Assembly (NCBI RefSeq): GCF_006716785.1
Contig: NZ_VFPQ01000001.1
Span: 2,170,001 to 2,234,000, forward strand
Reading direction: 5' to 3'
Source: Thermopolyspora flexuosa
Lineage (GTDB): Bacteria; Actinomycetota; Actinomycetes; Streptosporangiales; Streptosporangiaceae
Length of the DNA stretch: 64,000 bases
A program made the position numbers and the translations under genes. Under the pieces are notes generated by a model. It did no database searches, was not told the DNA's origin, and saw only the letters and a program-made list of their open reading frames with translations. Below, piece after piece: positions 25,384 through 44,956 of the stretch (the stretch's first letter is position 1; every line of letters starts with the position of its first letter).

Positions 25384-26049
25384 TCAGTTCGCCCCCTCCC
25401 GCGGCATGCCGTACGAGGCGGGCACGAGCGCGGCGCTGAGCAGCCGGTCCACCGAGCGCACGGTGCGGCGGACCTGCGTCTCTTCCCCGTAGAACCCGAT
25501 GTCCATCGCGAGCCCCCACAGCAGGTCCCCGACCAGCCGGGTGAGCGCCTCGATGTCGACGTCCGGCTCGACGTCGCCGTCCCGCCGGGCCGCCTCGAGG
25601 GTCTCCCGCACGAACCTGCCGGCCGTCTCCAGCGGCAGCAGCGCGTGGTCGCGCAGCTCGGGGTGCCGGGTGGCGTCCACGGTGGCGGTGACGAAGAACC
25701 GCACGAACGTCCGGTCGGTCCAGCCGAAGTCGGTCGCCGACTCCACCAGCGCCATGATCCGCCGGTGCGCGGGCCCCGGCACGGCCGACGCCCGGTTGAT
25801 GATCCGCTCCACCGCGACCTCCTGCACGGAGGCGAGCGCGGCGAGATACAGGTCGATCTTGCTCGGGTAGTAGTTGGCGATCGCGTTACGCGTCAGGCCC
25901 GCGTCCGCGGCGATCTGCTTCAGGCTCGCCTGGTCGAACCCGATGGTGCTGAACACCTGGCGGGCACTCTGCAATATCCGCAGCCGGGTCTCTGCGCTGT
26001 CGGATCCGGGCGGGCGACCGGGGCCACGCCTCCTGGTCGGGCCACTCAC
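25384..26049 (-). CDS. TetR-family regulator at the end of the mycofactocin locus
   Basis: 221-residue repressor. The N-terminal helix-turn-helix is TRLRILQSARQVFSTIGFDQASLKQIAADAGLTRNAIANYYPSKIDLYLAAL; the ligand domain has no assignable specificity. The GTG start lies 48 bases beyond the mftE stop, so it may be the last gene of the mycofactocin operon or have its own promoter in the AT-richer gap (26050-26097). It is distinct from MftR, which is encoded at the other end. Confidence 0.85.
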   Translation of the reverse strand: MSGPTRRRGPGRPPGSDSAETRLRILQSARQVFSTIGFDQASLKQIAADAGLTRNAIANYYPSKIDLYLAALASVQEVAVERIINRASAVPGPAHRRIMALVESATDFGWTDRTFVRFFVTATVDATRHPELRDHALLPLETAGRFVRETLEAARRDGDVEPDVDIEALTRLVGDLLWGLAMDIGFYGEETQVRRTVRSVDRLLSAALVPASYGMPREGAN

Positions 26050-26097: not shown

Positions 26098-26781
26098 CTA
26101 GGCCATCTCCGCGATCCAGGCCGCCACCGCCGCCTCCAGGTCGTCGGCGGCGGCCCGGAGCAGCTCCCGGCCCTGCTCCGCGCTCGCCCCCGCCGGGTCG
26201 CCGAGCACGCCGTTCGGGCTCACCGCCCGCACCCCGCGCTCGCGCAGCGCGGGCATGAGCTCGGCGAGATCCCCGGCCGCGCCCGCCTCGGCCCGGTCCG
26301 CGCGCACCCGCTCCGGGCCGAGCGCGAGCTGCACCGACGTCTCGGTACGGCCCGCGTGCCAGTCGCCTCGCCACTTCGGCGACCAGGCGAGTACCCGGCG
26401 GCCCTCGTAGCGCAGCCGCCGCACCGCCCGCGACACCGCGAGCGCGTTGCCGCCGTGGCCCACCACGAGCAGCATCGCCCGGAAGCTGAGCGACGCCGAC
26501 CTGCCCAGCTCGATCAGCACCAGCTCGAGCGCCTCGTGGCCGATCGACAGCGTGCCGGGGAAGTCCGCGTGCTCCCCGCTCGCCCCGTACGGCAGGGCCG
26601 GGGCGACCACCACGTCGGGGCGGCGGCGCGCCAGCTCGGCCGCGAGCGCCGCGGCCACGTCGGTGTCGGTGGACAGCGGCAGGTGCGGCCCGTGCTGCTC
26701 GGTCGAGCCGACCGGGACGGCGAGGGTGCGCCCCGCCATCCCCTCGGCCTCCGGCCAGGTCAGGTCGGCGAGCCGGGTCAT
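26098..26781 (-). CDS. mftE: MftE, creatininase-family peptidase of mycofactocin maturation
   Basis: 227-residue metallo-amidohydrolase. In known systems MftE releases the C-terminal Val-Tyr-derived dipeptide core (AHDP) from the MftC-modified MftA peptide. Metal-site motifs of the creatininase family are present: GSTEQHGPHLPLSTDTDVA, GASGEHADFPGTLS, VGHGGNALA and DWHAGRTETS. The ATG overlaps the etfB-like stop (ATGA, 26778-26781), so it is co-translated with the electron-transfer genes. This places peptide maturation and electron transfer in one transcript. Confidence 0.92.
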   Translation of the reverse strand: MTRLADLTWPEAEGMAGRTLAVPVGSTEQHGPHLPLSTDTDVAAALAAELARRRPDVVVAPALPYGASGEHADFPGTLSIGHEALELVLIELGRSASLSFRAMLLVVGHGGNALAVSRAVRRLRYEGRRVLAWSPKWRGDWHAGRTETSVQLALGPERVRADRAEAGAAGDLAELMPALRERGVRAVSPNGVLGDPAGASAEQGRELLRAAADDLEAAVAAWIAEMA

Positions 26782-27701
26782 CGCGCGGCCGCGTCGGCGG
26801 CGTCCTGCGCCTCGAGGTGCCCGGTGCGCCGCAGGAAGTCGAGCAGCGCGTCGGCCGCCTCGGCCGCGTCCACCGGGCCGATCACCGTGGGCGGCTCGTG
26901 CGTGTCGAGCACGCCGGTGAGCCGCAGCAGCCGCTCCCGCGCGCTCGCCCCGGCCGGCGGCGGCACCACCCGCGCCCGCGGCCGGAACGGCCGGGCCCGG
27001 CCCACGGTCACCTGCGGGCCACCGGCCGGGGCGGCCGCCGCGACCGGCACCTGCGCGGAGGCGGCGGCGAGCAGGCCCGGCAGGCCCGCCCGGCGCAGCC
27101 GTACCCCGGCCGCCTCCACCGAGCACACCGCGGGCCGCGGCACGCGCAGCCGCTCCCGGCGCCCGCCGTCGAGGCGGCGCTCGGCGACGAGGTGATCGCC
27201 TGTGGCCTCCAGGCCGACGAGGCCGAGCGCCTGGGCGGCGCCGAGCTCGTGCGCCAGGTAGGCGGGCAGCGCGCCGGTGCCGCGGTCGGCCGAGCGGTCG
27301 CCGGTCAGCACGAGCGCCGGGCCGTCCGGGCCGGTCGCCTTCCGGATCGCCGCGGCGAGCGCCGCCGCCAGGGCCCGCTCGTCGGCCGCGAGGTCGGCGA
27401 CGTACTCCTCGTCCGCCGCGTGCCACGGCACCCGGAGCACCTCGACGCCGAGCGCGGCGACCTGCCGCAGCACCTCGTCGGCCGACGCGTCGCCCGCGGT
27501 CACCGCCAGCACCCGGCCCGACCAGGCCTCGGCGACGCGCAGGCCGTACTCGAGGGCGGCGGCCTCGGCGGGCGGCAGGCCGAGCATGCCCGGGTCGCGG
27601 TCGACGTGCCCGCTCACCGGGTCGACCCGGGCCGCCGGGTCGGCGGGCCGCAGGCACACCACGATCACGGGCCCCGCCGACCCGGACCCTGCCTTGCTCA
27701 T
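26778..27701 (-). CDS. Mycofactocin-associated electron transfer flavoprotein beta subunit (FixA/EtfB-like)
   Basis: 307 residues, divergent EtfB/FixA: N-terminal VIVVCLRPADPAARVDP, then LPPAEAAALEYGLRVAEAWSGRVLAVTAGDASADEVLRQVAALGVE, LVLTGDRSADRGTGALPAYLAHELG and PRPAVCSVEAAGVRLR, matching the ETF beta order. It would pair with the alpha subunit encoded upstream to accept electrons from a flavin dehydrogenase and pass them to FixCX. The start is 103 bases after fixX, the widest gap in this gene set, and that gap contains a strong hairpin. Confidence 0.85.
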   Translation of the reverse strand: MSKAGSGSAGPVIVVCLRPADPAARVDPVSGHVDRDPGMLGLPPAEAAALEYGLRVAEAWSGRVLAVTAGDASADEVLRQVAALGVEVLRVPWHAADEEYVADLAADERALAAALAAAIRKATGPDGPALVLTGDRSADRGTGALPAYLAHELGAAQALGLVGLEATGDHLVAERRLDGGRRERLRVPRPAVCSVEAAGVRLRRAGLPGLLAAASAQVPVAAAAPAGGPQVTVGRARPFRPRARVVPPPAGASARERLLRLTGVLDTHEPPTVIGPVDAAEAADALLDFLRRTGHLEAQDAADAAAR

Positions 27702-27768
27702 CGGGCACCTCCGAGGGTGACTGTCGCAGTGGAAGATCGGATGCCCCGGCGGGCCGGGGCGGCTCGGT

Positions 27769-27801
27769 CCGGGCCCGCCGCCGTCGCGCGGGCGGGCCCG
27801 G
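27769..27801 (-). terminator. Intercistronic hairpin between the fixX-like and etfB-like genes
   Basis: Perfect 11-pair GC stem: CCGGGCCCGCC (27769-27779) and GGCGGGCCCGG (27791-27801), 11-base loop, starting four bases past the fixX-like stop. No U tract. It may attenuate, process or end the transcript before etfB-mftE. Confidence 0.6.
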
Positions 27802-27804
27802 GGA

Positions 27805-28185
27805 TCAGCCGTGGCGGAAGATGACGCCGTGGCCGCCGTCCGGGTAGGTCCAGGTGATGGCGCCCTCCCGGTTGCAGATCTGGTAGCAGGTGCCGCACTC
27901 GAAGCACTGCTCGTAGTTGAACAGGATGCCGCCGTCCGCGGTGGGGGCGAACAGGTTCGCCGGGCACGCGGTCACGCAGTCCCGGGTGGTGCACGAGCGG
28001 CACACGTCCGAGTCGACGACGATGTGCGGCCGTTCGCTCACCCGGAAGTCGACGGTGGCCATGCGGTCCTCGAACGACACCTCGCCCCACCGCTCGGGCG
28101 TGCCGGGCCGGGCCGGGGCGGTGGCGGCCGCCGGTGCGGCCGGGGCGTCGATGGTCGCGGCGCCGCGCCGCCTGCGCAGGATCAT
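27805..28185 (-). CDS. FixX-like ferredoxin
   Basis: 126-residue iron-sulphur protein. Cluster 1: CRSCTTRDCVTACP (CxxCx4CxxxCP). Cluster 2: CFECGTCYQICN (CxxCxxCxxxC). The C-terminal ITWTYPDGGHGVIFRHG matches FixX / ETF-QO ferredoxin domains. The first 40 residues are an Ala/Pro-rich extension not usual in FixX. The ATG overlaps the fixC-like stop (ATGA, 28182-28185). Known FixCX pairs form the quinone-reducing half of FixABCX; that role is inferred here. Confidence 0.88.
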   Translation of the reverse strand: MILRRRRGAATIDAPAAPAAATAPARPGTPERWGEVSFEDRMATVDFRVSERPHIVVDSDVCRSCTTRDCVTACPANLFAPTADGGILFNYEQCFECGTCYQICNREGAITWTYPDGGHGVIFRHG

Positions 28186-29513
28186 CGGAACACCCGCCCG
28201 CCGCGCAGGCCGTCCGCCAGCAGGTGGCGCAGCTTCACGTCGTTGCGCCGGGCGGCCCGCCTCAGCAGCGCGAGCAGGCCCGGCTTGGGCTTGGGATCGG
28301 TCACGGTGAACATCCCCTCGACCAGGTCGGCGACGAGTCCCGGGTAGCGGCGCTGCACGCGCTCGGAGAGCACGAGGTCCGGTGCGCCGCGCAGCCGCTC
28401 GTGGTTGGCGAGCACGAACCCCTTCTCCAGCTCCCGCTGGTAGACCGAGAGCCCGGAGGCGGACAGGTCCCCGGCGTCGAGCGCCTTGGCGGCGGCCCGG
28501 CCCGCGGCGAGCCCGGACCCGATGGCGAAGTTCACGCCCTCGAGCCAGATGCCCGCGGCGAGGCACATCCCGGCGGCGTCCCCGGCGACGAGCATGCCGT
28601 CGGTGTACAGGGCCGGCATGTGGTTGTAGCCGCCCTCGGGGATCAGGTGCGCGCCGTACTCCTTGAGCGTCGCGCCCCGCAGGTACGGCGCGATCGCCGG
28701 GTGGGCCTTGAGCCCGGCGATCACCTCCTCCGGGCGTTTGCCCGCCTTGCCGAGGTGGGCCAGCGACAGCACCACGCCGACCGAGACCGTGTCGCCGTTG
28801 GTGTAGAGGAAGCCGCCGCCGGGGATGTCGCCGGTGCAGCCGAGGATCTCGATGTCGAGGCCCTCGTCGCCGCGCAGCCCGAACCGCTCGTCGATCACCT
28901 CGCGGGGCAGCGCGAGCACCTCCTTGACGCCGAGCGTGAGGTGCTCGGGGTTGGTGCGCGGCAGCAGCCGGGCCTCCTTCGCCAGGAACGAGTTCACCCC
29001 GTCACAGGCGATCACGATCCTGGCGCGCAGGTCGCCGTCCGGGCGGTCGGTGCGCACCCCGGCGATCCGCCCGGCCTCGTCCCGCAGCAGCCCGGTCGCC
29101 ACCGTGGAGGTGACGAGCGTCGCGCCCGCCTCCACCGCCTTGCCGGCGAGCCACCGGTCGAAGTCCGCCCGGTAGACGGTCATCCCGTTGTACGGCGGCC
29201 GCCCCCACGCCTGGGTGCGGAAGTCGACGGTGAGCGCCTGGGTGGCGGTCATCACCATGGTGGAGCGGCGCACCACCCAGCGCTGGACCGGGACCTCCTC
29301 CCACCAGCGCGGCACGATCTCGTCGAGGATGCGGCCGTACACCACGCCGCCGTAGAGGTTCTTGCTGCCGGGGAAGGGGCCGCGTTCCAGCAGCACCACC
29401 GACTTCCCGGCCCGGGCGAGCGCCCACGCCGCCGCGGACCCGGCCGGCCCGGCCCCGACGACGACCGCGTCGACCTCGGCGGCCGCCCGGCCGTTCACGC
29501 GCGGATCAGCCAT
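28182..29513 (-). CDS. FixC-like flavoprotein dehydrogenase (ETF-quinone oxidoreductase family)
   Basis: 443-residue FAD protein. Dinucleotide fold DAVVVGAGPAGSAAAWALARAGKSVVLLERGPFPGSKNLYGG at the N-terminus (quoted motif GAGPAGSAAA), a substrate/quinone-domain YNGMTVYRADFDRWLAGKA, and LVAGDAAGMCLAAGIWLEGVNFAIGSG near the FAD pyrophosphate. It lacks its own 4Fe-4S cluster, which FixX supplies. AAGGAGG precedes the ATG at a good distance, favouring MADPRV over upstream starts. It would pass ETF electrons to the quinone pool at the membrane. Confidence 0.9.
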   Translation of the reverse strand: MADPRVNGRAAAEVDAVVVGAGPAGSAAAWALARAGKSVVLLERGPFPGSKNLYGGVVYGRILDEIVPRWWEEVPVQRWVVRRSTMVMTATQALTVDFRTQAWGRPPYNGMTVYRADFDRWLAGKAVEAGATLVTSTVATGLLRDEAGRIAGVRTDRPDGDLRARIVIACDGVNSFLAKEARLLPRTNPEHLTLGVKEVLALPREVIDERFGLRGDEGLDIEILGCTGDIPGGGFLYTNGDTVSVGVVLSLAHLGKAGKRPEEVIAGLKAHPAIAPYLRGATLKEYGAHLIPEGGYNHMPALYTDGMLVAGDAAGMCLAAGIWLEGVNFAIGSGLAAGRAAAKALDAGDLSASGLSVYQRELEKGFVLANHERLRGAPDLVLSERVQRRYPGLVADLVEGMFTVTDPKPKPGLLALLRRAARRNDVKLRHLLADGLRGGRVFR

Positions 29514-29603
29514 GCCCCGGCCTCCTTCGTCCCATGCCGGCCGCCGCCGCGGCCGGAGTCGGCCGCCACGGGCCGACGGTCCCTGCACATCGCTCGTCCT
29601 GCC

Positions 29604-30629
29604 TCACGCATCGGCGGCCCTCTTCCCGGCCCCGGCGCCCGCCACGGCCTCCGGTACGGCGACGCCGAGGCGCCGGGCCAGCTCCACCAGGAGCGCGCGG
29701 GCGTCGGTGACGAGGCCGAGGTCGGCCATGGCCGTCATCGGGCAGTGCGGGTCGGTGTTCACGCTCACCACGTGCCGGGGCGAGCCGAGCCCGCCGGTGT
29801 GCTGGCTCGCGCCGGACACCCCGAACGCGATGTAGAGGTCCGGGTCGATCGCCACGCCGGTGGTGCCGATCTGCCGGTCGTGCCCGACCCAGCCCGCGTC
29901 GGTGACCACCCGGGTGGCGCCGGTGGACGCGCCCAGCCGCGCCCCGACCCGGGCGAGCAGGTCGAGCACGGCGCGGGCCTCGGCCTCGTCGCTGCTCGGC
30001 GGCACCAGCCCGGCGCCCGCGCCGAGCACCCGCTTCGCCTCGGCGAGGTCCATCGTCGCCACGTCCGGCTCGAGCACCTCGAGCAGCTCCACGTCGGGCC
30101 GTTCCGGCACCGGCCCCAGCTCGAGCGGGGTCACCCGGCCGTCGGTGACCGGGGTCGCGGTGCGCGAGCCGGGCACCAGGGTCACCACCGCCGGCCCCGC
30201 CACGGTGGCCGGGACGAGCAGCCGGTCGTCGAGCCGGGCCAGCTCGGCCCGCACCTCGGCGCCGGTCCACTCGGCCCGGATCGCCTGGGCGAGCAGGGCC
30301 CGGCCGAGCGCGGCGGCGAGCCGCGGCGCGAGGTCGCGCCCGTCCGGCGAGGCGGGCAGCACCACGAGCGGCGCCTCGGCGAGCACGGGGGCGAGCGCCT
30401 CGGCGAGCGGCCCGAACCGGACCGCGGCCCCGGTGTCGCACCACCAGGCCAGCTCGGCGGCGGTCAGCTCCTTGGCCGCCCGCTCGGCGCCCGAGCCGAC
30501 CACGAGCGCCGCGCCGCCCGCCTCGGCCACCGCCTCGTCCGCCCCGGCCGGCAGCGCGCCGTCCCGGGCCACCACCACGGCCACCGGCCGCCCGGCCGGC
30601 GCCGTACGCGCGCTCATCGTGCCGCTCAC
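29604..30629 (-). CDS. Mycofactocin-associated electron transfer flavoprotein alpha subunit (FixB/EtfA-like)
   Basis: 341 residues. The C-terminal FAD domain shows GASTGATRVVTDAGWVGHDRQIGTTGVAIDPDLYIAFGVSGASQHTGG (key pieces RQIGTTG, GVSGASQH) and VSVNTDPHCPMTAMADLG, the hallmarks of ETF alpha. The N-terminal half is diverged. GTG 30629 overlaps the preceding stop (GTGA); ATG 30617 is an alternative. It pairs with the etfB-like protein. Whether the complex bifurcates, as FixAB does, cannot be decided from these motifs. Confidence 0.88.
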   Translation of the reverse strand: MSGTMSARTAPAGRPVAVVVARDGALPAGADEAVAEAGGAALVVGSGAERAAKELTAAELAWWCDTGAAVRFGPLAEALAPVLAEAPLVVLPASPDGRDLAPRLAAALGRALLAQAIRAEWTGAEVRAELARLDDRLLVPATVAGPAVVTLVPGSRTATPVTDGRVTPLELGPVPERPDVELLEVLEPDVATMDLAEAKRVLGAGAGLVPPSSDEAEARAVLDLLARVGARLGASTGATRVVTDAGWVGHDRQIGTTGVAIDPDLYIAFGVSGASQHTGGLGSPRHVVSVNTDPHCPMTAMADLGLVTDARALLVELARRLGVAVPEAVAGAGAGKRAADA

Positions 30630-32590
30630 AGCGCCACCGCCACTCGGTGGCCCTCGACGACCGCGGCGTGCGCCCGGCGCGGGGCGAGGCAGTCGCCGAC
30701 CCGGTGGACCGGGAACGGCGCGCCGCGCAGCGCGTGCCACAGCTCGTTCTCGGGCTGCTGGTGCACGGCACAGACCACCCAGTCGGCGGTGCGGGTCTGG
30801 TCGGTGCCGGTGGGGTGGTGCTGCAGGGTGAGCGTCACCCGGCCGTCGTCGGTCGCGGCGGCGCCCATCGGCACCAGGTCGGTGCTCTGCCGGATGCCGC
30901 GTTCGTGCGCCTTCACGTTCCACGTCTCCAGGTCGAGGGTGATGCCGAGGTCCTGGCCGACCACCATGCCGGGCGTGACGATCTCCACGTCGCAGCCGCG
31001 GTCGGCGAGCAGCTCGGCGACCGAGGTCGCCTGGTGGAAGCCGAGCTCGTCGACGACCACCACCTGGCCGGTCGGGTTCGCGCGGCCCTCGAGCACGTCC
31101 CGCACGTCGACCACCCGGTCGTGGCCGCCGGCCCACCAGGGCCGGGCCGGGCGGGCGCCGGTGGCGAGGATCACCGCGTCCGGGTTCTCCGCCCGCAGCA
31201 TCGCCGCGTCGGCCTCGACGCCGGTGCGCACGTCCACGCCGAGGTGGCGCACCCGGGCCGCGAGGTTGCGGGTGAGGTCGAGGAACTCGGCCCGGGACGG
31301 CACCGACGCCGCCACCGCCACCTGGCCGCCGAGCGTCGGCGCGCGCTCGTACAGGGTGACGTGGTGGCCGCGCTCGGCCGCGGTGACCGCGGCCTGCAGC
31401 CCGCCGGGGCCGCCGCCGACCACGAGCACCCGCCGGCCGCGGCGGCGCGGCTCGGGCAGCCGGATCGCCTCCCGGCCGGTGCGCGGGTTCTCGATGCAGC
31501 CGAGCCACCGGTTGAGGCCCATGCGGCCGACGCACTCCTGGTTGCACGACAGGCAGGTGCGGATGCGGTCGGCGTGCCCGGAGCGGGCCTTCGCCGTGAA
31601 GTCGGGGTCGGCGATCTGGCCGCGGACCACGCCGATGAGGTCGGCGTGGCCCTCCTGCAGCGCCCGGTCGGCCTGCAGCGGGTCCTTGAACCGGCCCACG
31701 CCGACGACCGGCAGCCGCACCGCGGCGCGGATCGCGCTCGGGATGAACATCGCGTACCCCGGCGGGATCCGCATGCTCGCCTCGATCATGTACAGGGTCG
31801 AGGTGGCGACGCCGATCGAGGTGTTGATGTAGTCGACCTTGCCGCTCGCCTCGACCATCTTCGCCACGGCCACGGCCTCGTCGATCGTGGTGCCGCCCTC
31901 GATCAGCTCGTCGCCGCAGAGCCGTACCCCGAGCACCTTGCGCGGGCCGATCACCTCGCGCACCGCGGCGACGATCTCCAGCAGCAGCCGGGCCCGGTTC
32001 TCCAGCGACCCGCCCCACCGGTCGGTGCGCTTGTTGGTCGCCGGGGAGAGGAAGCCGCGCACGATCGAGGAGTGCGAGCACTGCAGCTCGACGCCGTCGA
32101 AGCCGCCCTCCATGCAGTGCCCGGCGACCTTGGCGTACCCGGCGATGATGTCGCGGATCTCGTGCTCCTCGACCGCCTTCGGCACCTCGCGGAACAGCGG
32201 GTCGGCGACCGGGCTCGGCGCCCACACCGGCAGCCGCGAGTACATGCCCGAGGCCTGGCCGCCGTTGTGGTTGATCTGGGCGAGGATCGGCACCCCGTGC
32301 GCGTGCACCGCCTCGGTGATCCGCCGGTAGCCGGGGATCACCTCCGGGTGGAAGCCGTGGATGAGCTTCTCGTACGGCCAGTCGGTCGGGTGGGTGGAGT
32401 GCTCCTCGGTGATGATCATCCCGGCGCCGCCGGCCGCCCGCGCCGCGTAGTAGGCGGCGTGCTGCTCGCTCGGCAGCCCGTCCTCGGCGTAGTTGGTGAG
32501 GTGCGCCGAGAACACGATCCGGTTCCGCAGCGTCAACGGGCCCAGCCGCAGCGGGCTGAACAGGTACCGGTACCGGCCGGTTCCGCTCAT
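30626..32590 (-). CDS. Mycofactocin-system FadH/OYE-family oxidoreductase 1
   Basis: 654-residue, two-domain flavoenzyme like 2,4-dienoyl-CoA reductase and NADH:flavin oxidoreductases. An N-terminal FMN TIM barrel (SPLRLGPLTLRNRIVFSAHLT; QINHNGGQASG; GVELQCSHSSIVRGFLSPATNKRTDRWGGS) is followed by a 4Fe-4S site (CLSCNQECVGRMGLNRWLGC) and a C-terminal FAD/NAD(P) domain (VLVVGGGPGGLQAA; VILATGARP). It is coupled to its neighbours by ATGA and GTGA overlaps. It resembles, from memory, the family named for occurrence in mycofactocin clusters; its substrate is unknown. Confidence 0.9.
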   Translation of the reverse strand: MSGTGRYRYLFSPLRLGPLTLRNRIVFSAHLTNYAEDGLPSEQHAAYYAARAAGGAGMIITEEHSTHPTDWPYEKLIHGFHPEVIPGYRRITEAVHAHGVPILAQINHNGGQASGMYSRLPVWAPSPVADPLFREVPKAVEEHEIRDIIAGYAKVAGHCMEGGFDGVELQCSHSSIVRGFLSPATNKRTDRWGGSLENRARLLLEIVAAVREVIGPRKVLGVRLCGDELIEGGTTIDEAVAVAKMVEASGKVDYINTSIGVATSTLYMIEASMRIPPGYAMFIPSAIRAAVRLPVVGVGRFKDPLQADRALQEGHADLIGVVRGQIADPDFTAKARSGHADRIRTCLSCNQECVGRMGLNRWLGCIENPRTGREAIRLPEPRRRGRRVLVVGGGPGGLQAAVTAAERGHHVTLYERAPTLGGQVAVAASVPSRAEFLDLTRNLAARVRHLGVDVRTGVEADAAMLRAENPDAVILATGARPARPWWAGGHDRVVDVRDVLEGRANPTGQVVVVDELGFHQATSVAELLADRGCDVEIVTPGMVVGQDLGITLDLETWNVKAHERGIRQSTDLVPMGAAATDDGRVTLTLQHHPTGTDQTRTADWVVCAVHQQPENELWHALRGAPFPVHRVGDCLAPRRAHAAVVEGHRVAVAL

Positions 32591-34557
32591 CGTGCTCCTC
32601 CGGTGGCGAGTTCCACGGCGCGGCGGCGGCCCTCCAGCACGGCCTCCATCACGGTGCGCGGGGCGACGCAGTCCCCGGCGCGCGGCGTGCCGGGCCGGGC
32701 GAGGTAGAGCGACTCCTCGGGGAGCTCGTGGCCGCAGTCCACCAGCACCGCGCAGGGCAGCTGTCGCTTCTCGCCGGTCCACACGTGCTCCACGGTGACG
32801 TGGCCGTCGGCGACCGCGCGCAGCCGGGAGCGCAGCACGCGCTCCACCCCGGCCCGCTGCAGGCGGGCGTTGGCGTCGGCGAGGTCGCCGGTGAGGGCGA
32901 GCTTGTTGCCCGCCGTACCGTCCTGGGTGATCAGCGCGACGGTACGGCCGGCCGCGGCGAGCCACTCCGCGGCGGCGACCGCGATCGGGCCGCCCACCGG
33001 GTCGTCGAGCACGACCGGGCCGTCGGGCAGCGCGGCCGGGCCGCGCTCGCACAGGTCGCGGATGCCGATCACGGCCACCGTGCCGTCCGGGCAGACGGGC
33101 CGCGGCCCGGGGCGGGCGCCGGTGGCGAGCACCACCTCGCCGTCCAGGTCGGCGGCGGTGGCCTCGACCCCGGTGTCGATGCGCACCCCGAGGCGGCGGC
33201 ACTCGGCCTCCAGCCAGTCGGCGAGCCGCGCGAGCCGTTCCCGGGACGGGCCGCCGACCGCGGCGAGCCGCAGCGCCCCGCCGGCGCGGTCGCGGGCCTC
33301 GACCACCCGCACCCTGCGGCCGAGCGTGGCGAGCACCCGGGCGCACTCGAGCCCGGCGGGCCCGGCGCCCACCACCAGCACCTCGCGGTCCGTGGCGGCG
33401 GAGGCGGCCACGGCGGGCGTCTCGCCGGGAAGCGCGTCGAGGTAGGCGTCCTCGGTCTCGTGGCCGCTGCCCGGGTCGCCGATGCAGGTGACGATCGGGT
33501 TGCGGTTGTCACGCACCAGGCAGGTCTGGTTGCACAGCACGCACGGCCGCGCCCGGTCGGCGAGCCCGGCCCGGGCGAGCGCCACCAGCCGCGGCTCGGC
33601 GATCTGCGCCCGGGTCATCTCCACCAGGTCGGCCGCGCCCGCGTCGAGCGCCGCCTGCGCCGCGTCGAGGTCGACGACACTGCCCTGCAGCGCCACCGGC
33701 ACCCGGCCCGCGGCGGCCTTGCGCATCGCGTGGCACAGGTCGAGGTTGAAGTTCGGCGGAGTGTGCCCGTCGGGCCGGTAGGCGGAGGTGGAGAACGGCC
33801 CGCCGCGGACCACGGTCAGCAGGTCGATCGCGTCGGCGAGCGCGTCCACCTGGGCGGCGGCCTGCTCGGGGGTGACCCCGGCCCAGGGGGCGAGCTCGTC
33901 ACAGGACAGCCGCAGCGCGAGCACCCGGTCCGGGCCGATCGCCTCCCGCACGGCGGCGATCACCTCGCGGGTGAGCTTGAGTTTGTCCTCGCCGTAGGCG
34001 TCGCCGCGCAGGTTGGTCAGCCCGGAGTGGAACTGGCGGAGCAGCGAGAACGCGCCCGCGTCGAGCTCCACGCCGTCGAGCCCGGCCTGCACCGCGCGCC
34101 GGGCGCCGTCGGCGAACCCGGCGATCACGGCGTCGATCTGCTCCTGCTCCATCTCGGCCGGCATCTCGCGGCTCGCCGCGTCGGCCACCGGCGAGGGCGC
34201 CCACAGCACCGACTGGGAGTACGCGCTCGACCCCTGGGAGCCGGTGTGCCCGAGCCCGGCGAGCACCACCGTGCCGTACGGCCGGCACGCCTCGGCGATC
34301 GCCGCCCAGCCGGGCTCGCAGTCCGCGGCGAGCGGGGCGCGCTCGTAGGGGTGGTCGTCCGGGGTGACCGAGGCGGTCTCCACCACGATCACCCCGGCGC
34401 CGCCGGCCGCCCGCCGCCGGTAGTAGGCGACGTGGCGGTCGGTGAGCGCGCGGCGGCGGCCCAGGTTGGTCACGTGCGGGCCGAAGATCACACGCGAGGG
34501 GGCGGTACGGCCGGCCAGCCCGATCGGGTCGGTCAGCCTGGGGGATTCTTCGGTCAC
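32587..34557 (-). CDS. Mycofactocin-system FadH/OYE-family oxidoreductase 2
   Basis: 656-residue paralogue of the preceding enzyme with the same layout: FMN barrel (SRVIFGPHVTNLGRRRALTDRHVAYYRRRAAGGAGVIVVE, quoted pieces RVIFGPHVTNLG and AGGAGVIVVE), 4Fe-4S cysteines CVLCNQTCLVRDNRNPIVTC, and FAD/NAD(P) domain with VLVVGAGPAGLECARVLATLG. The barrel is more diverged: the 'RTDRWGG' loop of paralogue 1 is replaced by NLRGDAYGEDKLK. GTG overlaps the mftC stop (GTGA, 34554-34557). The two may form a hetero-complex or act on different carriers; this is inferred. Confidence 0.9.
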   Translation of the reverse strand: MTEESPRLTDPIGLAGRTAPSRVIFGPHVTNLGRRRALTDRHVAYYRRRAAGGAGVIVVETASVTPDDHPYERAPLAADCEPGWAAIAEACRPYGTVVLAGLGHTGSQGSSAYSQSVLWAPSPVADAASREMPAEMEQEQIDAVIAGFADGARRAVQAGLDGVELDAGAFSLLRQFHSGLTNLRGDAYGEDKLKLTREVIAAVREAIGPDRVLALRLSCDELAPWAGVTPEQAAAQVDALADAIDLLTVVRGGPFSTSAYRPDGHTPPNFNLDLCHAMRKAAAGRVPVALQGSVVDLDAAQAALDAGAADLVEMTRAQIAEPRLVALARAGLADRARPCVLCNQTCLVRDNRNPIVTCIGDPGSGHETEDAYLDALPGETPAVAASAATDREVLVVGAGPAGLECARVLATLGRRVRVVEARDRAGGALRLAAVGGPSRERLARLADWLEAECRRLGVRIDTGVEATAADLDGEVVLATGARPGPRPVCPDGTVAVIGIRDLCERGPAALPDGPVVLDDPVGGPIAVAAAEWLAAAGRTVALITQDGTAGNKLALTGDLADANARLQRAGVERVLRSRLRAVADGHVTVEHVWTGEKRQLPCAVLVDCGHELPEESLYLARPGTPRAGDCVAPRTVMEAVLEGRRRAVELATGGAR

Positions 34558-35900
34558 GGCCGCTCCACACCGGACGCTGCGCCGGCCATCGCCGCCTCCT
34601 CGGCGGCGCGCGGCGCGGGCATGCCGCTCAGCGGGTTCTCGTCACACGGCTTGGCCGGGGCGTTCGCGGGCGTGGCCGCGCGGGCGGGCTCGGGCAGCGG
34701 CATGCCGCTGAGCGGGTTCTCGTCGCAGGGCTTCGACGGCATGGCCGCCGGGGTGGCGGGGCGGCGCATGCCGATCGTCACCGGCACCGGCCCGCCGCGG
34801 CGGCGCGGCTTGGCGGTGCGGGAGTGGTCCTGCGACGGCCTGGGCACGCTGTCCGCGGCGACCGTGGCGAGCGCGGCCTGGCCCTCGCCCCGCACGCACT
34901 CGGGGTCGGGGCCGTCGAGCGGCAGCCCGGTGAAGAACTTCGCGGCCATGCAGCCGCCCTGGCAGGCGTCGTAGTGGCCGCACGAGGCGCACGCGCCCGC
35001 GGCCTGCGGCCGGCGCAGCTCGCGGAAGAGCGGCGACTCCCGCCACACCTTGGCGAAGCCGCCCTCGTCGCGCACGTTCCCGGCGAGGAAGGCGTCGTGG
35101 ATGGCGAACGGGCAGGCGTACACGTCACCGATCGGGTCGATGAGGCACACCACGCGGCCCGCGCCGCACAGGTTGAGGCCCGGCAGCTGCTTGCCGTACG
35201 CGGACAGGTGGAAGAACGAGTCGCCGGTGAGCACGTTGTCGCCGTGCACCAGCAGCCACTCATAGAGCCGGCGCTGCTGCTCCGGCAGCGGGTGCAGCTC
35301 GTCCCAGGTGTCGGCGCCGCGGCCCGAGGGGCGCAGCCGGGTGATGCGCAGCTGCGCGCCGTACCGGTCGGCGATCGCCTTGAACTCGTCGAGCTGGGGG
35401 ATGTTGTGGCGGGTGGCGACCACGGAGAGCTTGAAGCCGCGGAAGCCCGCGTTGGCGAGGTTCTCCATCGCCCGGATGGCGGTGGCGTACGAGCCGGGCC
35501 CGCGCACCGCGTCGTTCACCTCGGCGGTGGCGCCGTCGAGCGAGATCTGCACGTCGACGTAGTCGCTCTTGGCGAGCCGCTCGGCGATCCGCGGGGTGAT
35601 GCGCACCCCGTTGGTGGAGAACTTCACCCCGACGTGGTGGGCGGTGGCGTAGTCGACGATCTCCCAGAAGTCGGAGCGCACGGTCGGCTCGCCGCCACCG
35701 ATGTTGACGTAGAAGACCTGCATGCGCTCCAGCTCGTCGATGACGGCCTTGCACTCGTCGGTGGTGAGCTCGCGCGGGTCGCGGCGGCCCGAGCTGGACA
35801 GGCAGTGGACGCAGGCGAGGTTGCAGGCGTAGGTGAGCTCCCAGGTGAGGCAGATCGGCGCGTCCAGACCGGCCTTGAAATGGTCGACCAGGGCGGTCAT
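34554..35900 (-). CDS. mftC: MftC, radical SAM/SPASM mycofactocin maturase, with duplicated tail
   Basis: 448-residue radical SAM enzyme that decarboxylates and cross-links the C-terminal Val-Tyr of MftA. The radical SAM cluster is C26-NLA-C30-VH-C33, followed by NIGGGEPTVRSDF (SAM binding). The SPASM region has two further clusters: LCGAGRVVCLIDPIGDVYACPF and CASCGHYDACQGGCMAAKFFTGLPLDGPDPEC (Cys positions as in the family). After about residue 365 there is a long low-complexity tail in which KPCDENPLSGMP occurs twice, 28 residues apart. ATG overlaps mftB (ATGA, 35897-35900). Confidence 0.96.
   Translation of the reverse strand: MTALVDHFKAGLDAPICLTWELTYACNLACVHCLSSSGRRDPRELTTDECKAVIDELERMQVFYVNIGGGEPTVRSDFWEIVDYATAHHVGVKFSTNGVRITPRIAERLAKSDYVDVQISLDGATAEVNDAVRGPGSYATAIRAMENLANAGFRGFKLSVVATRHNIPQLDEFKAIADRYGAQLRITRLRPSGRGADTWDELHPLPEQQRRLYEWLLVHGDNVLTGDSFFHLSAYGKQLPGLNLCGAGRVVCLIDPIGDVYACPFAIHDAFLAGNVRDEGGFAKVWRESPLFRELRRPQAAGACASCGHYDACQGGCMAAKFFTGLPLDGPDPECVRGEGQAALATVAADSVPRPSQDHSRTAKPRRRGGPVPVTIGMRRPATPAAMPSKPCDENPLSGMPLPEPARAATPANAPAKPCDENPLSGMPAPRAAEEAAMAGAASGVERP
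34620..34740 (-). repeat. Tandem 84-base repeat inside the mftC 3' end
   Basis: Two copies of a unit with period about 84 bases (28 codons), encoding ...P-KPCDENPLSGMP-... each time; cores near 34618-34650 and 34702-34734. The copies differ at third positions (for example CGTCACACGG against CGTCGCAGGG), so the duplication is not very recent or the protein repeat is under selection. Confidence 0.8.
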
Positions 35901-36199
35901 GTGTCCTCCGAATCGGCGGGCCCGCGGCGGCGCTCGACGATCATGTCGGTGCGGGCGAGCACGTCCAGGGCCTTGGCGTAGCGGGCGATCGCGGCGTCGC
36001 CGGTGACCCCGGCGGCGGCGCACGCGGCGCGGGCGGTGGGATGGGATCCCAGCGCCCGCACCACGTCGAGCAGCACCCGGTCCTTCAGAAACGACAGGCG
36101 CCTGGTGCCGAAGTGGTAGAGCAGGGCCCCGAAGGGCTCGGGGCGGACGGACACCTGCGGGTGCAGGTCCCAGGCCCGGTCGAGGTCGAAACCGTTCAT
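35897..36199 (-). CDS. mftB: MftB, peptide chaperone of mycofactocin maturation (RRE domain)
   Basis: 100-residue PqqD-like RiPP recognition element that binds the MftA leader and delivers it to MftC. Visible features: N-terminal FDLDRAWDLHPQVSVRPEPFGALLYHFGTRRLSFLKDRVLLDVVRALGSHPTA (typical pieces SVRPEPFGALLYHFGTRRL and FLKDRVLLDVV), then a C-terminal helical part. The start MNGFDL gives the expected family length. It ends in an ATGA overlap with mftC and lies 38 bases after mftA. Confidence 0.93.
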   Translation of the reverse strand: MNGFDLDRAWDLHPQVSVRPEPFGALLYHFGTRRLSFLKDRVLLDVVRALGSHPTARAACAAAGVTGDAAIARYAKALDVLARTDMIVERRRGPADSEDT

Positions 36200-36237
36200 C
36201 TCATCGGCCCTTCGGGGGCGTGTCGGATGCGGTGGGA

Positions 36238-36336
36238 TCAGTAGACGCCGCACATGCCGTCGATGGACACGTCCTCGACGAGCAGCTCGTCCTCGATCAT
36301 GTCGGTCGTCTCGATGGCCGGAGCGATGTCGGACAT
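36238..36336 (-). CDS. mftA: MftA, mycofactocin precursor peptide
   Basis: 32-residue RiPP precursor. The leader is acidic (ETTDMIEDELLVEDVS) and the C-terminus is IDGMCGVY, the invariant mycofactocin core whose last two residues, Val-Tyr, are turned into the redox cofactor. The ATG has AGGAG six bases upstream. It is the first gene of the minus-strand mft operon, divergent from mftR. The coding stretch is too short for most gene finders but unmistakable by its end. Confidence 0.97.
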   Translation of the reverse strand: MSDIAPAIETTDMIEDELLVEDVSIDGMCGVY

Positions 36337-36411
36337 GGCAGGCTCCTCTGTGTACGTAGGGGCAGGTTGGGTCCCGGGCGTGACGCCGCCCGGAGCGTGT
36401 TGCCCCATATT

Positions 36412-36430
36412 TAACGCACTGAGTGCAAAA
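36412..36430. promoter_or_regulatory. Candidate MftR operator and mftA promoter
   Basis: Perfect dyad GCACT-G-AGTGC (36416-36426), extended by TT...AA at both ends, lies 18 bases before the mftR start and 80 before the mftA start. On the minus strand a TAAATA (-10-like) begins directly beside it. This suggests MftR represses both directions from one site; binding is inferred from location. Confidence 0.6.
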
Positions 36431-36447
36431 AAGGGAAGGGGCAGGTG

Positions 36448-37077
36448 ATGGAGACGTCGCGACCGGTCGCCGTCGACCGGCCGGCGCGGGGCCGCAGGCA
36501 GCGCACGTCGCACGCCGAGCTGGAACGCGTCGCCTTCGGCCTGTTCGCGGAGAAGGGCTTCGACCAGACGACGATCGACGACATCGCCGAGGCGGCGGGG
36601 ATCGGGCGGCGGACGTTCTTCAACTACTACGCGTCCAAGAACGACCTGGTCTGGGGCCGGTTCGAGCACGACGTGGCCCGGCTGCGGCGGCTGCTCGCCG
36701 CCGCCCCGCCGGACGTGCCGATCATGGACGCGCTGCGCGAGGCCGTGGTCGAGTTCAACACCTACGACCCGTCGGTCCTGCCCGAGCACCGCACCCGGAT
36801 GCGCCTGATCCTCAACGTCCCGGCGCTGCAGGCCGACTCCACCCTGCGCTACCACCTGTGGGCCGCGGCGGTCGCCGAGTTCGTCGCGCACCGCACCGGG
36901 CACCCGGTCGACGGGCTCGTGCCCCGGCTGGTCGGCCAGACCGCCCTCGCCGCGGCCATCACCGCCTACCGCCAGTGGCTCGACGACGAGTCGAGCGACC
37001 TCACCGCGCTGATCGCGGAGGCGATGCGGCTGATCGGCACCGGGTTCACCGACGAGGCGCTCACCGCGGATCGGTGA
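36448..37077 (+). CDS. mftR: MftR, TetR-family regulator of the mycofactocin locus
   Basis: 209-residue repressor. The helix-turn-helix region ERVAFGLFAEKGFDQTTIDDIAEAAGIGRRTFFNYYASKNDLVWGRF matches the mycofactocin-associated TetR subfamily (GRRTFFxYxxSKNDxxWG). In mycobacteria MftR is derepressed by long-chain acyl-CoAs. It is divergent from mftA and shares a short promoter region with a dyad. ATG 36448 is chosen; GTG 36445 is directly before it. It converges with the SDR gene 17 bases away. Confidence 0.92.
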   Translation: METSRPVAVDRPARGRRQRTSHAELERVAFGLFAEKGFDQTTIDDIAEAAGIGRRTFFNYYASKNDLVWGRFEHDVARLRRLLAAAPPDVPIMDALREAVVEFNTYDPSVLPEHRTRMRLILNVPALQADSTLRYHLWAAAVAEFVAHRTGHPVDGLVPRLVGQTALAAAITAYRQWLDDESSDLTALIAEAMRLIGTGFTDEALTADR

Positions 37078-37094
37078 GGCCGCCCGCGCCTGCG

Positions 37095-37883
37095 TCAGAC
37101 GGTGAGCCCGCCGTCGACGGGGATGACCGCCCCGGTGCACCCGGAACCGGCGGGGGAGCAGAGCCAGAAGATCGCCTCGGCGATCTCGGCGGGCTCGAGC
37201 AGCCGGCGGGCGAGCTGCTGCTCGGCGAATCTCTCCTGGTCGGGCAGGCCGTAGATGGCGGCGCTCGCCTCGAGCATGGCGCCCCGGGTGGAGCCGGGGC
37301 AGATCGCGTTCGCGGTCACGCCGGTGCCGTCGAGGTCGGCGGCGAGCGCGCGCACGTACCCGATGACCGCGGCCTTCGCGGCCGAGTACGCGCCGAGCTT
37401 GCGCATGCCGCGCAGGCCCGCGGCCGAGGCGACCGCGACGAACCTGCCGGTCCCGGCCGCGATCATCGCGGGCACGGTCGCCTCGGCGAGACGGCGGACG
37501 CCGTGCAGGTTGACGCGGAGCAGCACGTCCCAGGCGTCGTCGCCGGTGGCCCAGGCGTCCGCGCCGTGGATGACCCCGGCGACCGCGATCGCCGCCGCGG
37601 GGGTACGGCCGGCCAGGCCGGCCCGCACCAGGGCGGGCAGGCCGGGGTCGCCGACGTCCGCGATCCGGGTGGCCACCCCGGCGGCGCCCTGCCGCAGGCA
37701 CTCGTCGGCCACGGCCTCGAGGTCGTCCGGGTCCGGCATGCCGTACCCGATCGGCGGCTGCGGGCGGCACGCGTCGATGAGCAGCAGCGCCCAGCCGTCC
37801 CGCGCCAGCCGCAGCGCGGTGGCCGCGCCGATGCCGCGGGCCGCGCCGGTGATCACGGCGATCGGGGCGTCCTCGCCGAACAT
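37095..37883 (-). CDS. Mycofactocin-coupled SDR-family oxidoreductase
   Basis: 262-residue short-chain dehydrogenase. The cofactor motif is TGAARGIGAATALRLARDGW, catalytic residues are in VASAAGLRGMRKLGAYSAAKAAV (Ser, Tyr, Lys), and it ends with GAVIPVDGGLTV. An insertion after the second strand (LLLIDACRPQPPIGYGMPDPDDLEAVADEC) is the hallmark of mycofactocin-coupled SDRs: it seals in the NAD so that electrons must leave through mycofactocin. GGGAGAGG precedes the ATG. The alcohol substrate is unknown. Confidence 0.92.
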   Translation of the reverse strand: MFGEDAPIAVITGAARGIGAATALRLARDGWALLLIDACRPQPPIGYGMPDPDDLEAVADECLRQGAAGVATRIADVGDPGLPALVRAGLAGRTPAAAIAVAGVIHGADAWATGDDAWDVLLRVNLHGVRRLAEATVPAMIAAGTGRFVAVASAAGLRGMRKLGAYSAAKAAVIGYVRALAADLDGTGVTANAICPGSTRGAMLEASAAIYGLPDQERFAEQQLARRLLEPAEIAEAIFWLCSPAGSGCTGAVIPVDGGLTV

Positions 37884-42721: not shown

Positions 42722-44956
42722 TCAGGAGCGGCAGGGTTCGGCCCGGCCGTCCGCCGCCGGGAGCCGATGAGCCGGCGGGGAAGCATCGCGAGATGTGCCG
42801 CCCGTGGGGGTACCGAGACCGGCCGCCACCCGCGCGCCGGGCCCGCCGGGCACCTCCCGCGTCGCGCCGCCGGGGTCGGCGCCGGGGAAGGCGATGCCGA
42901 GGACGCGCAGCAGCGGGATCGCCTTGACCGCGGTCTCCTCGTACTCCGCCGCGGGGTCGGAGAGCGCGACGATCGCCCCGCCCACGCCGTACGACAGGCC
43001 GTCGGGCGTGATCACGGCGGTGCGGATCACCATGCTGAGGTCGGCCGCGCCGGTGAGCGAGAAGAAGCCGATCGCGCCGGAGTAGACGCCGCGCGGCCCG
43101 GCCTCCAGCTCGTCGATGATCTGCATCGTGCGGATCTTGGGCGCGCCGGTCATCGAGCCGCCGGGGAACGCGGCCCGCACGCAGTCGACCGCCGAGGCGT
43201 CCGGCCGCAGCCGTGCCCGCACCGTGCTGACGAGCTGGTGCACGGTCGCGTACGTCTCCACGTCGAAGATCTTGGCGACGTGCACCGAGCCGACCTCGGC
43301 GACCCGGCCCAGGTCGTTGCGGACCAGGTCGACGATCATCAGGTTCTCGGCGACGTCCTTCTCGCAGGTGGCGAGCTCCTTGGCGATGAGCGCGTCCTCG
43401 GCGGGGGTACGGCCGCGCGGCCGGGTGCCCTTGATCGGCTTGGACTCCATGGTGCCGTCGGCCGACACCCGCAGGAACCGCTCGGGCGAGGAGCTCAGCA
43501 CCGACACCGGGCCGAGCCGCAGGTACGCGCCGAACGTGGCCGGGCTGATCCGGCGCAGCGCCCGGTAGCACTGCCAGGCGTCGAACGCGCCCGCCACGTG
43601 GAGCATGTTGGTGAGGCACACCTCGTACGTCTCGCCGCGGCGGATCGCCTCCTGGCAGGCGGCGATCAGCTCCAGGTAGCGGGCCCGGTCGTGCCGCAGC
43701 CGGACCGGCCCCGCCGTACCGGGGGAGCCGACCGGGCCGGGGCGGCGGCCGGCGAGAGCGCGCAGCCGCGCCGTGGTCTCCTCGAACCAGGCGAGCGCGG
43801 CGGCCTTGTCACCGTCGACGGCGAGCGCGAGCAGGTACGTGGTCGCGGTGGCGTGGTCGAACACGATCGCCCGGTCGGCGAAGATCATCGCCGCGTCCGG
43901 GGTGGGGGAGCGGTGCGCGTCCGCGCCCCCGCACTCGGCCTTCAGCTCGTAGCCGAGGTAGCCGACCCAGCCGAGCGCGAACTCCAGCGGCAGCGACGGC
44001 ACCCGCGCCCGCCACCGCCGCAGGTCGGCGTCGAGCCAGTCGAGGAAACCGCGCTCCACGGTGCGCGTCCGCCCGCCCTCGGCCACGGTCACCGTGCCGT
44101 GCCGTACGTCGGCGGTCACCACGCGGGCGAGCGGCCCGGAGGCGTCGCCCATCACCGAGAACCGCCCGGCGCCCTCGTGCACCAGGCCGCTGTCGAGCCA
44201 GAAGGCGTGCTCGGCGTCCCCGAACAGCGCCTCGAAGGCCACCTCGTCGTGCCACTCGGTGGGCAGCGAGCGGACCAGCACCTCCGCCTCCACCGGATCC
44301 GGCACCGGCGGCCGCTCCGGCACGGCGGGGGACGCCGGGGCGGGCGCGGCGGAGATCCGGACCGTGGGGCGGGGACGGGGGAGTTCGCGGGTGAGGTCGC
44401 GGAAGTTCGCCAGGATGCGGTGGCCGTACTGGGTGCGGATCGACTCGGGGTGGAACTGCAGGCCCCAGATCGGGCGGGTGCGGTGGCGCAGCGCCATGAG
44501 CACCCCGTCCGGGGTCCACGCGGTCGCCTCCAGCTCCTCCGGCAGCGAGGTCACCGCCAGCGAGTGGTAGCGCACCACCTGGAACGGGGACGGCACCCCG
44601 GCGAACAGGCGGTCGCCGCGGTGCTCCACCGGGGAGAGGCGGCCGTGGCGCGGCTCGGGCGCGGGGCCGACCGTGCCGCCGTGCACGTACGCGACCCCCT
44701 GGTGACCGAGGCAGACGCCGAGCAGCGGGATCTCGGCCCGCTCGATCACCTCACGGCAGACGCCGAAGTCGGCCTCCCGGTACGGCGTGCCCGGGCCGGG
44801 CGAGATGACGACGTTGTCGAAGTGCGCGAGGTCGGACGGCCGCCAGCGCGGGTCGTCGTTGCGGATGACTACCGGCGGGTGGCCGTTGAGCTCCGCGAGG
44901 TAGTGCCAGAGGTTGTAGGTGAACGAGTCGTAGTTGTCTATCAGCAGCGTCCGCAT
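42722..44956 (-). CDS. pabAB: Aminodeoxychorismate synthase, PabA-PabB fusion
   Basis: 744-residue bifunctional enzyme making 4-amino-4-deoxychorismate for p-aminobenzoate. The N-terminal glutamine amidotransferase has LLIDNYDSFTYNL, the catalytic Cys in LGVCLGHQGVAY and the His-x-Glu in GLQFHPES. The C-terminal chorismate-binding half has PIKGTRPRGRTPAED, NLMIVDLVRNDLGR and GGSMTGAPK. The start MRTLLIDN is chosen over an upstream frame of poor composition. Such fusions occur in folate synthesis and in antibiotic clusters; with no cluster nearby, folate or another PABA use is likely. The last 40 residues are low-complexity. Confidence 0.94.
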   Translation of the reverse strand: MRTLLIDNYDSFTYNLWHYLAELNGHPPVVIRNDDPRWRPSDLAHFDNVVISPGPGTPYREADFGVCREVIERAEIPLLGVCLGHQGVAYVHGGTVGPAPEPRHGRLSPVEHRGDRLFAGVPSPFQVVRYHSLAVTSLPEELEATAWTPDGVLMALRHRTRPIWGLQFHPESIRTQYGHRILANFRDLTRELPRPRPTVRISAAPAPASPAVPERPPVPDPVEAEVLVRSLPTEWHDEVAFEALFGDAEHAFWLDSGLVHEGAGRFSVMGDASGPLARVVTADVRHGTVTVAEGGRTRTVERGFLDWLDADLRRWRARVPSLPLEFALGWVGYLGYELKAECGGADAHRSPTPDAAMIFADRAIVFDHATATTYLLALAVDGDKAAALAWFEETTARLRALAGRRPGPVGSPGTAGPVRLRHDRARYLELIAACQEAIRRGETYEVCLTNMLHVAGAFDAWQCYRALRRISPATFGAYLRLGPVSVLSSSPERFLRVSADGTMESKPIKGTRPRGRTPAEDALIAKELATCEKDVAENLMIVDLVRNDLGRVAEVGSVHVAKIFDVETYATVHQLVSTVRARLRPDASAVDCVRAAFPGGSMTGAPKIRTMQIIDELEAGPRGVYSGAIGFFSLTGAADLSMVIRTAVITPDGLSYGVGGAIVALSDPAAEYEETAVKAIPLLRVLGIAFPGADPGGATREVPGGPGARVAAGLGTPTGGTSRDASPPAHRLPAADGRAEPCRS

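Follow-up and report, generated by a model that had tools for sequence, protein, structure and literature searches.

How would mycofactocin be finished in a bacterium whose genome holds the cluster for this cofactor and no mftD? The question is raised by a 64,000-nucleotide stretch of Thermopolyspora flexuosa DNA (positions 2,170,001 to 2,234,000 of contig NZ_VFPQ01000001.1, assembly GCF_006716785.1; hereafter, the window, numbered from its first letter). Here, a minus-strand cluster running from 37883 to 26098 encodes, in this order, a mycofactocin-coupled short-chain dehydrogenase/reductase (SDR), MftA, MftB, MftC, two Fe-S flavoproteins of the FadH/Old Yellow Enzyme (OYE) type, OYE1 and OYE2, the alpha subunit of an electron transfer flavoprotein (ETF), EtfA, then FixC, FixX, the ETF beta subunit EtfB, and MftE. 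The MftD step is the source of the redox centre of mycofactocin. In M. smegmatis, according to PMC7491314, MftD deaminates 3-amino-5-[(p-hydroxyphenyl)methyl]-4,4-dimethyl-2-pyrrolidinone (AHDP) to premycofactocin (PMFT), and deletion of mftD abolishes mycofactocin, with AHDP accumulating; a genome devoid of mftD, therefore, needs another enzyme if the cofactor is made. The best reading of the observations reported here, and the new element in them, is that mftD alone is the gene for which the six genes from OYE1 to EtfB stand in, and it appears probable that these genes, in their place between mftC and mftE, have taken over from MftD by non-orthologous replacement.

The lack of mftD, which the initial annotation had noticed in the window, extends to the entire genome (5.77 Mb in 3 contigs, 99.99% complete): in a genome-wide hidden Markov model search, with all 12 first-look candidates scored, the top match scored 34 bits, where the cut-off is 471. 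The lack of mftG holds at genome scale as well, with nothing at E<=1e-80 for TIGR03970, the sole one of three MftG models used. By contrast, the annotation had also placed the set in the stead of mftF, and this is wrong because mftF is in the genome, unlinked to the cluster, about 1.8 Mb off (G000:C1:4038217-4039572; 431.5 bits, cut-off 280). Of the two genes whose presence in a second operon would have told against the annotation's reading, mftF turned up elsewhere, and mftD was not found.

A first line of evidence is the distribution of the genes across genomes, which the annotation had suggested examining as a phyletic profile. Four genes, mftC, mftD, the mycofactocin-associated etfA, and mftG, were sought in one and the same sample of 345 genomes of the class, the top candidates in each genome (5 for mftC and mftD, 6 for EtfA, and 4 for mftG) being scored and judged against curated NCBIfam cut-offs. 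These were exceeded in 104 genomes for mftC, 89 for mftD, 18 for EtfA, and 42 for mftG. Among the 104 mftC genomes, 16 encode EtfA and 87 have mftD, without any overlap. The 87 comprise 86 genomes over the cut-off and one (G140) in which the match, truncated by a contig end, scores 470.3 bits against 470.85, and mftD exceeds the cut-off in none of the 16. Put differently, all but one of the 17 mftC genomes that lack mftD encode EtfA; in the exception (G308), which has neither, the contig stops 13 nt past the mftC match, so that true absence of mftD was rejected as an interpretation. Fisher's test gives p 6e-17 for the mutual exclusion under strict cut-offs and 6e-18 if G140 is included, and the exclusion persists within families: in family f17, 12 genomes have EtfA and no mftD and 16 show the reverse, with G308 in addition (p 2.5e-7), and in the window's own family, the respective numbers are 2 and 5 (p 0.048). 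Because the genomes share ancestry, the effective numbers are lower and these p-values should not be read literally; for this reason, a tree was built (see below). In a wider sample of 227 genomes from the phylum, searched for EtfA and mftD, EtfA was found in 4 genomes (3 of them new), mftD in 19 (14 new), and both in none.

In searches of chosen genomes (80 for OYE1, 53 for mftF, and 23 for mftA), OYE1 exceeded its cut-off in 22 of the 80, namely, in 18 of 18 genomes with EtfA and 4 of 62 others. Among the 16 genomes with mftC and EtfA, mftA is over the cut-off in 15, the exception being one (G006) where the contig ends inside mftB, and mftF in 13, the exceptions being one match just below the cut-off (G111, 277 of 280 bits) and two genomes (G260 and G172) with none at E<=1e-60. 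Three further genomes (G022, G110, and G171) have mftD without mftC; in two of these, both from the window's family, MftD is over the cut-off (687 bits in G110 and 667 in G171), with no mftA, mftC, or mftF over theirs.

The same searches bear on a different proposal, close to the annotation's first option of mycofactocin electrons passing through the ETF to FixCX and quinone, namely, that the set recharges the cofactor, with an OYE protein oxidizing reduced mycofactocin and the ETF and FixCX passing the electrons to quinone, a job that belongs to MftG rather than to MftD. A respiratory role fits an ETF:quinone route, mftG as modeled by TIGR03970 is missing in 14 of the 16 genomes that combine mftC with the set, and, in a 2025 study (PMC11778925), about 25% of mftC genomes are without mftG, the substitute being left open. 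However, mftG is over the cut-off in the other two of the 16 (G086 and G232), 48 of the 87 mftD genomes lack mftG and none of them has EtfA, and the association of EtfA with mftG (p 0.024) is a far poorer fit than that with mftD (about 1e-17). Moreover, recharging leaves the missing mftD unaccounted for. As the main explanation, replacement of MftG is weak, and we consider it unlikely.

The position of the six genes is the second line of evidence for a replacement of MftD. In 7 of the 16 genomes, they come immediately after mftC (G000, which is the window's own, G006, G086, G232, G260, G300, and G316), and the gene orders observed include mftA-B-C-[six]-E-F (G086), mftF-A-B-C-[six]-E (G383), and B-C-[six]-E-SDR-F (G006). 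For comparison, mftD adjoins mftC in 9 of 26 mftD loci with about 1.5 kb on each side; the slot is shared in part of the genomes. Among the best 80 of at least 312 relatives from the OYE2 search, hereafter the named loci, in which the variant label was assigned from the locus alone and a single MftD served as the tblastn query for mftD, the six genes occur in order in 50 and straight after mftC in 39, of which 34 also have mftE and 31 both mftE and mftF; mftD was found by this within-locus search in none of the 80. In eight of these loci, EtfA is not accompanied by an OYE1 match, and in 13, OYE2 is present but EtfA is not; contig ends account for some of these cases. The arrangement recurs in records from Pseudonocardiaceae, Frankiales, and Acidimicrobiia; the named carriers among the matches listed are Amycolatopsis, Saccharopolyspora, Kutzneria, Prauserella, Labedaea, Frankia, Pseudofrankia, and Solirubrobacter, along with many metagenome-assembled genomes (MAGs) of Acidimicrobiia, and the closest named relative among these matches is the MAG Actinobacteria bacterium ZC4RG28, with an OYE2 that is 96% identical.

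The third line of evidence comes from the tree of MftC, which included 122 proteins (63 from variant loci, 58 from mftD loci, and one unlabelled, L090 of G308), with four duplicate loci (L024, L026, L040, and L041) left out. Over the 121 labelled rows, the label changes 8 times, at least 2 of these changes being forced by strongly supported branches, and 5 changes are found when only rows from genomes with known mftD status are counted (75 rows, 17 of them variant). A single origin of the variant, with all of its members in one clade, was rejected (approximately unbiased test, p 0.016). Because the tree was built quickly and contains several long branches, the exact number of changes is soft, and what it supports is that more than one exchange between mftD and the six-gene set appears to have occurred.

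The exchange of cluster types also weighs on the possibility that the variant makes a different cofactor, in which the amine/imine pair of AHDP, or another derivative, would be the redox centre, cycled by the OYE proteins and the ETF. Such a cofactor would be in keeping with the absence of mftD and the retention of MftF and the SDR partner, and we know of no other AHDP deaminase. Nevertheless, the end of MftA and the family of the partner SDR are those of standard clusters, and the cluster types swap between related genomes, which argues for one product; we find a different cofactor quite improbable.

What, then, could the six proteins do? OYE1 (32587..34557) and OYE2 (30626..32590), both encoded on the minus strand like the rest of the set, score far above the cut-offs of their families (TIGR03996, 923 bits against 628, and TIGR03997, 1024 bits against 793). 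Their solved near full-length relatives are two CoA-ester reductases, trimethylamine dehydrogenase, histamine dehydrogenase, and HisD. Over the full length of both proteins, a flavin mononucleotide (FMN) barrel is joined to a 4Fe-4S cluster and two nucleotide-binding-fold domains, as judged from near full-length matches, by sequence or by model, to 3k30, 6de6, 6l6j, and trimethylamine dehydrogenase. The four cysteines of the 4Fe-4S cluster are invariant in 14 OYE2 and 13 OYE1 sequences, and in a wider set of 30 OYE1 sequences, one of them is conserved at 90% or more. The predicted structure of OYE1, for which the alignment left out one sequence with a stop codon (L150), has a pLDDT of 86 and a pTM of 0.87, and that of OYE2, a pLDDT of 77 and a pTM of 0.65, with values below 50 for residues 346-375, which include the Fe-S cysteines.

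The third domain of OYE2, searched alone, retrieves 6l6j, that is, HisD, an amine oxidase according to the entry title, at 1.1e-8, histamine dehydrogenase at 5.6e-8, 2-naphthoyl-CoA reductase at 2.9e-4, and trimethylamine dehydrogenase at 0.43, with 2,4-dienoyl-CoA reductase not listed at E<=10. This domain lacks the GxGxxG motif, the corresponding segment, VVVVDELGFHQATS, aligning to VVVYDDDHYYL of histamine dehydrogenase, so that OYE2 departs from the 2,4-dienoyl-CoA reductase 1ps9, where the third-domain GxGxxG is, presumably, the NAD(P)H site. With trimethylamine dehydrogenase, histamine dehydrogenase, and HisD, the OYE proteins share the domain order and the four 4Fe-4S cysteines, OYE2 shares the third domain without GxGxxG, and an ETF gene pair lies alongside in these systems, too. 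On these similarities, OYE2 and OYE1 may work like an amine dehydrogenase, without being classed as one.

The remaining four proteins fit an electron transfer chain. EtfA (29604..30617; NF038209, 450 bits, cut-off 240) and EtfB (26778..27701; TIGR04503, 337 bits, cut-off 200) are clear members of their families, and EtfB finds its matches among ETF beta chains of several kinds with solved structures, the top match being at 8.1e-13. FixC (28182..29513) resembles an ETF:quinone oxidoreductase, matching the FixC chain of 7koe at E 1.7e-74, and FixX (27805..28185) resembles its ferredoxin partner; these are the only two proteins of the cluster that stay below the curated cut-offs of their models, which are general ones for FixC and FixX (NF007450, 325 bits against 466, and NF011993, 57 bits against 166, respectively). 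The combination of ETF alpha and beta with FixC and FixX homologs is that of the FixABCX, or EtfABCX, systems, the difference being that the ETF subunits here form mycofactocin families of their own. Trimethylamine dehydrogenase passes electrons to ETF, and in PDB entries 1o94 and 1o95, this enzyme is found together with ETF chains; by analogy, the OYE proteins might deliver electrons through the ETF in the same manner.

A route consistent with these features can be sketched. MftC would cyclize the Val-Tyr end of MftA, after which MftE would free AHDP; OYE2, alone or paired with OYE1, would oxidize the C-NH2 of AHDP at the FMN, and the resulting imine would hydrolyze to the keto-amide PMFT. 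The electrons would travel from the FMN to the 4Fe-4S cluster, the dedicated ETF (EtfA/EtfB), and then, by way of FixC/FixX, to the quinone pool, rather than exiting at the flavin of MftD. We infer the substrate, the direction of electron flow, the quinone acceptor, and the division of labor between OYE1 and OYE2 from the similarities described above. A broader version of this scheme is conceivable, although we hold it with considerable doubt: there would be two interchangeable finishing routes, the second one employing the paired Fe-S flavoproteins, the ETF, and the ETF:quinone oxidoreductase for the steps of both MftD and MftG, so that formation of the keto-amide and re-oxidation of the cofactor would take place at the same carbon and over one shared wire to the quinone pool. 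Such a system would have in common with MftG the proposed tie of mycofactocin to the respiratory chain, whereas MftG itself is a GMC (glucose-methanol-choline) oxidoreductase, according to PMC11778925, and co-occurs with the set in 2 of the 16.

The role of the set as a stand-in for mftD, which the annotation had put forward as one of its two suggestions and which gains from the near-perfect mutual exclusion, the slot between mftC and mftE, and more than one exchange on the tree, is supported by distribution, position, and repeated exchange, not by chemistry, and several observations weigh against it. At the protein level, whole-length OYE2 scores the 2-naphthoyl-CoA and 2,4-dienoyl-CoA reductases above its amine-oxidizing relatives. 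OYE2 further has Leu31, within an HLTN motif that is invariant across 35 alignment rows, where the histamine dehydrogenases 3k30 and 6de6 have a cysteine that we take to bind FMN covalently, so that this mark of the amine dehydrogenases is lacking; HisD (6l6j) has an alanine at the same position and is likewise without the cysteine, and this residue is, therefore, not decisive. OYE1, in turn, carries a glycine where OYE2 and these relatives carry what is presumably the active-site histidine. No biochemical test of any protein of the set was found in the literature. At the genome level, the set does not adjoin mftC in 9 of the 16 genomes, being on another contig or further off. Four genomes of genus g51 carry OYE1 together with mftD, and G152 has EtfA without mftC, but in an assembly of 850 contigs. 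In G206, an assembly of 40 contigs that is 100% complete, the six genes occur with no mftA, mftC, or mftF over the cut-off. In G428 and G517, EtfA-FixC-FixX-EtfB occur with mftE and mftF without an adjoining OYE gene, the genes upstream of the ETF being those of ABC (ATP-binding cassette) transporters and, in G517, also of a molybdopterin oxidoreductase. Finally, G324 has the set plus an MftD-like protein that falls short of the cut-off (420 of 471 bits) and shares 47% identity with an MftD to which 8 other MftDs are 71-80% identical. Some of these observations (the six genes of G206, the distance from mftC in 9 of 16 genomes, and the top whole-protein similarity to CoA-ester reductases) would suit an unrelated catabolic oxidation or ene-reduction, with mftD lost for other reasons, but the occurrence of EtfA in 16 of 17 mftC genomes without mftD and 0 of 87 with it, and the repeated position between mftC and mftE across families, make this the least probable of the explanations considered.

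Some of these loci have further features. The G324 protein (L089, 4263-5399; G324:C277) scores between the MftD and lactate dehydrogenase families and adjoins an SDR match, and the set of G206 (L084, G206:C24:122000-141000) has a PhoX phosphatase and the permease of an ABC transporter in its vicinity. OYE2 homologs without ETF genes in the locus are found in L145, L155, L156, L164, L165, and L167, with an SDR match in all of these save L167 and a TetR match also in L156; possibly, the OYE2 family has another role there.

The mycofactocin association of OYE1, OYE2, EtfA, and EtfB is already on record because the families TIGR03996, TIGR03997, NF038209, and TIGR04503, of which the window proteins are members over the cut-offs, carry mycofactocin names; the available text of these entries records this association and states neither a function nor a link to mftD absence. 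The accessible portion of Haft 2011 (PMC3023750) reports the mftD family in most, not all, mycofactocin species, and contains no mention of TIGR03996 or TIGR03997. In a literature search that missed two central papers on MftD and mycofactocin, no paper was found that ties the set to mftD absence, nor, among the literature searched, one that combines mycofactocin with electron transfer flavoprotein, and there is nothing on the set in the portion of PMC8406134 that was available. The single paper listed for mycofactocin along with old yellow enzyme, and again along with dienoyl-CoA reductase, deals with the degradation of coumarin.

In other respects, the cluster is a conventional one. The parts that a mycofactocin cluster requires, that is, MftA with its conserved C-terminus, MftB, MftC, and MftE, as well as MftR and a mycofactocin-coupled dehydrogenase, are all present and over their NCBIfam cut-offs, as the initial annotation had it, and so is its account of two OYE proteins, the ETF subunits, FixC, and FixX between mftC and mftE borne out, in the order OYE1-OYE2-EtfA-FixC-FixX-EtfB. 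On the minus strand, these are the SDR (37095..37883; TIGR04504, 293 bits, cut-off 250), the 32-residue precursor MftA ending in IDGMCGVY (36238..36336; TIGR03969, 46.8 bits, cut-off 25), the chaperone MftB (35897..36199; TIGR03967, 112 bits, cut-off 33), the radical SAM maturase MftC (34554..35900; TIGR03962, 657 bits, cut-off 265), and MftE, a peptidase of the creatininase family (26098..26781; TIGR03964, 290 bits, cut-off 172). The TetR-type regulator MftR (36445..37077; TIGR03968, 267.9 bits, cut-off 224.9) is on the plus strand between the SDR and mftA, divergent from the latter. Stop/start overlaps, which the annotation had described as joining the genes, exist at mftB/mftC, mftC/OYE1, OYE1/OYE2, FixC/FixX, and EtfB/mftE; with the chosen starts, the other three junctions are gapped, by about 8 nt between OYE2 and EtfA, about 90 nt between EtfA and FixC, and about 103 nt between FixX and EtfB. 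With the canonical mycobacterial mftRABCDEF(G) cluster, the locus shares mftA, mftB, mftC, mftE, mftR, and the coupled SDR, with mftF elsewhere in the genome; it differs in that mftD is absent from the genome, mftG is absent by TIGR03970, and six other genes separate mftC from mftE.

Immediately downstream of mftE (25384-26049, minus strand) lies another TetR-type regulator, which scores 33 bits and is not MftR; among the 80 named loci, TetR matches are confined to 2. In the C-terminal tail of MftC (34554-34760), KPCDENPLSGMP is present twice. In a scan of tails with a visible end, one C-x-x-x-P-L motif was found in 35 of 60 MftC proteins from variant rows and in 21 of 26 from mftD rows, and two motifs only in a close relative (L092), the window's own MftC being incomplete in that scan. 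Upstream of the cluster, 42722-45058 (minus strand) encodes a fused glutamine amidotransferase/anthranilate synthase-type chorismate-binding protein.

Taken together, these findings point to a second way by which some actinobacteria may make, and perhaps recharge, mycofactocin. Given that 16 of the 104 mftC genomes, all without mftD, carry the EtfA of the set, curated families with no stated function gain a role that can be tested. If the replacement of MftD is real, an ETF-coupled amine dehydrogenase would be added to the maturation of cofactors derived from ribosomally synthesized and post-translationally modified peptides (RiPPs), and the cofactor would be tied to respiration in organisms without MftG.

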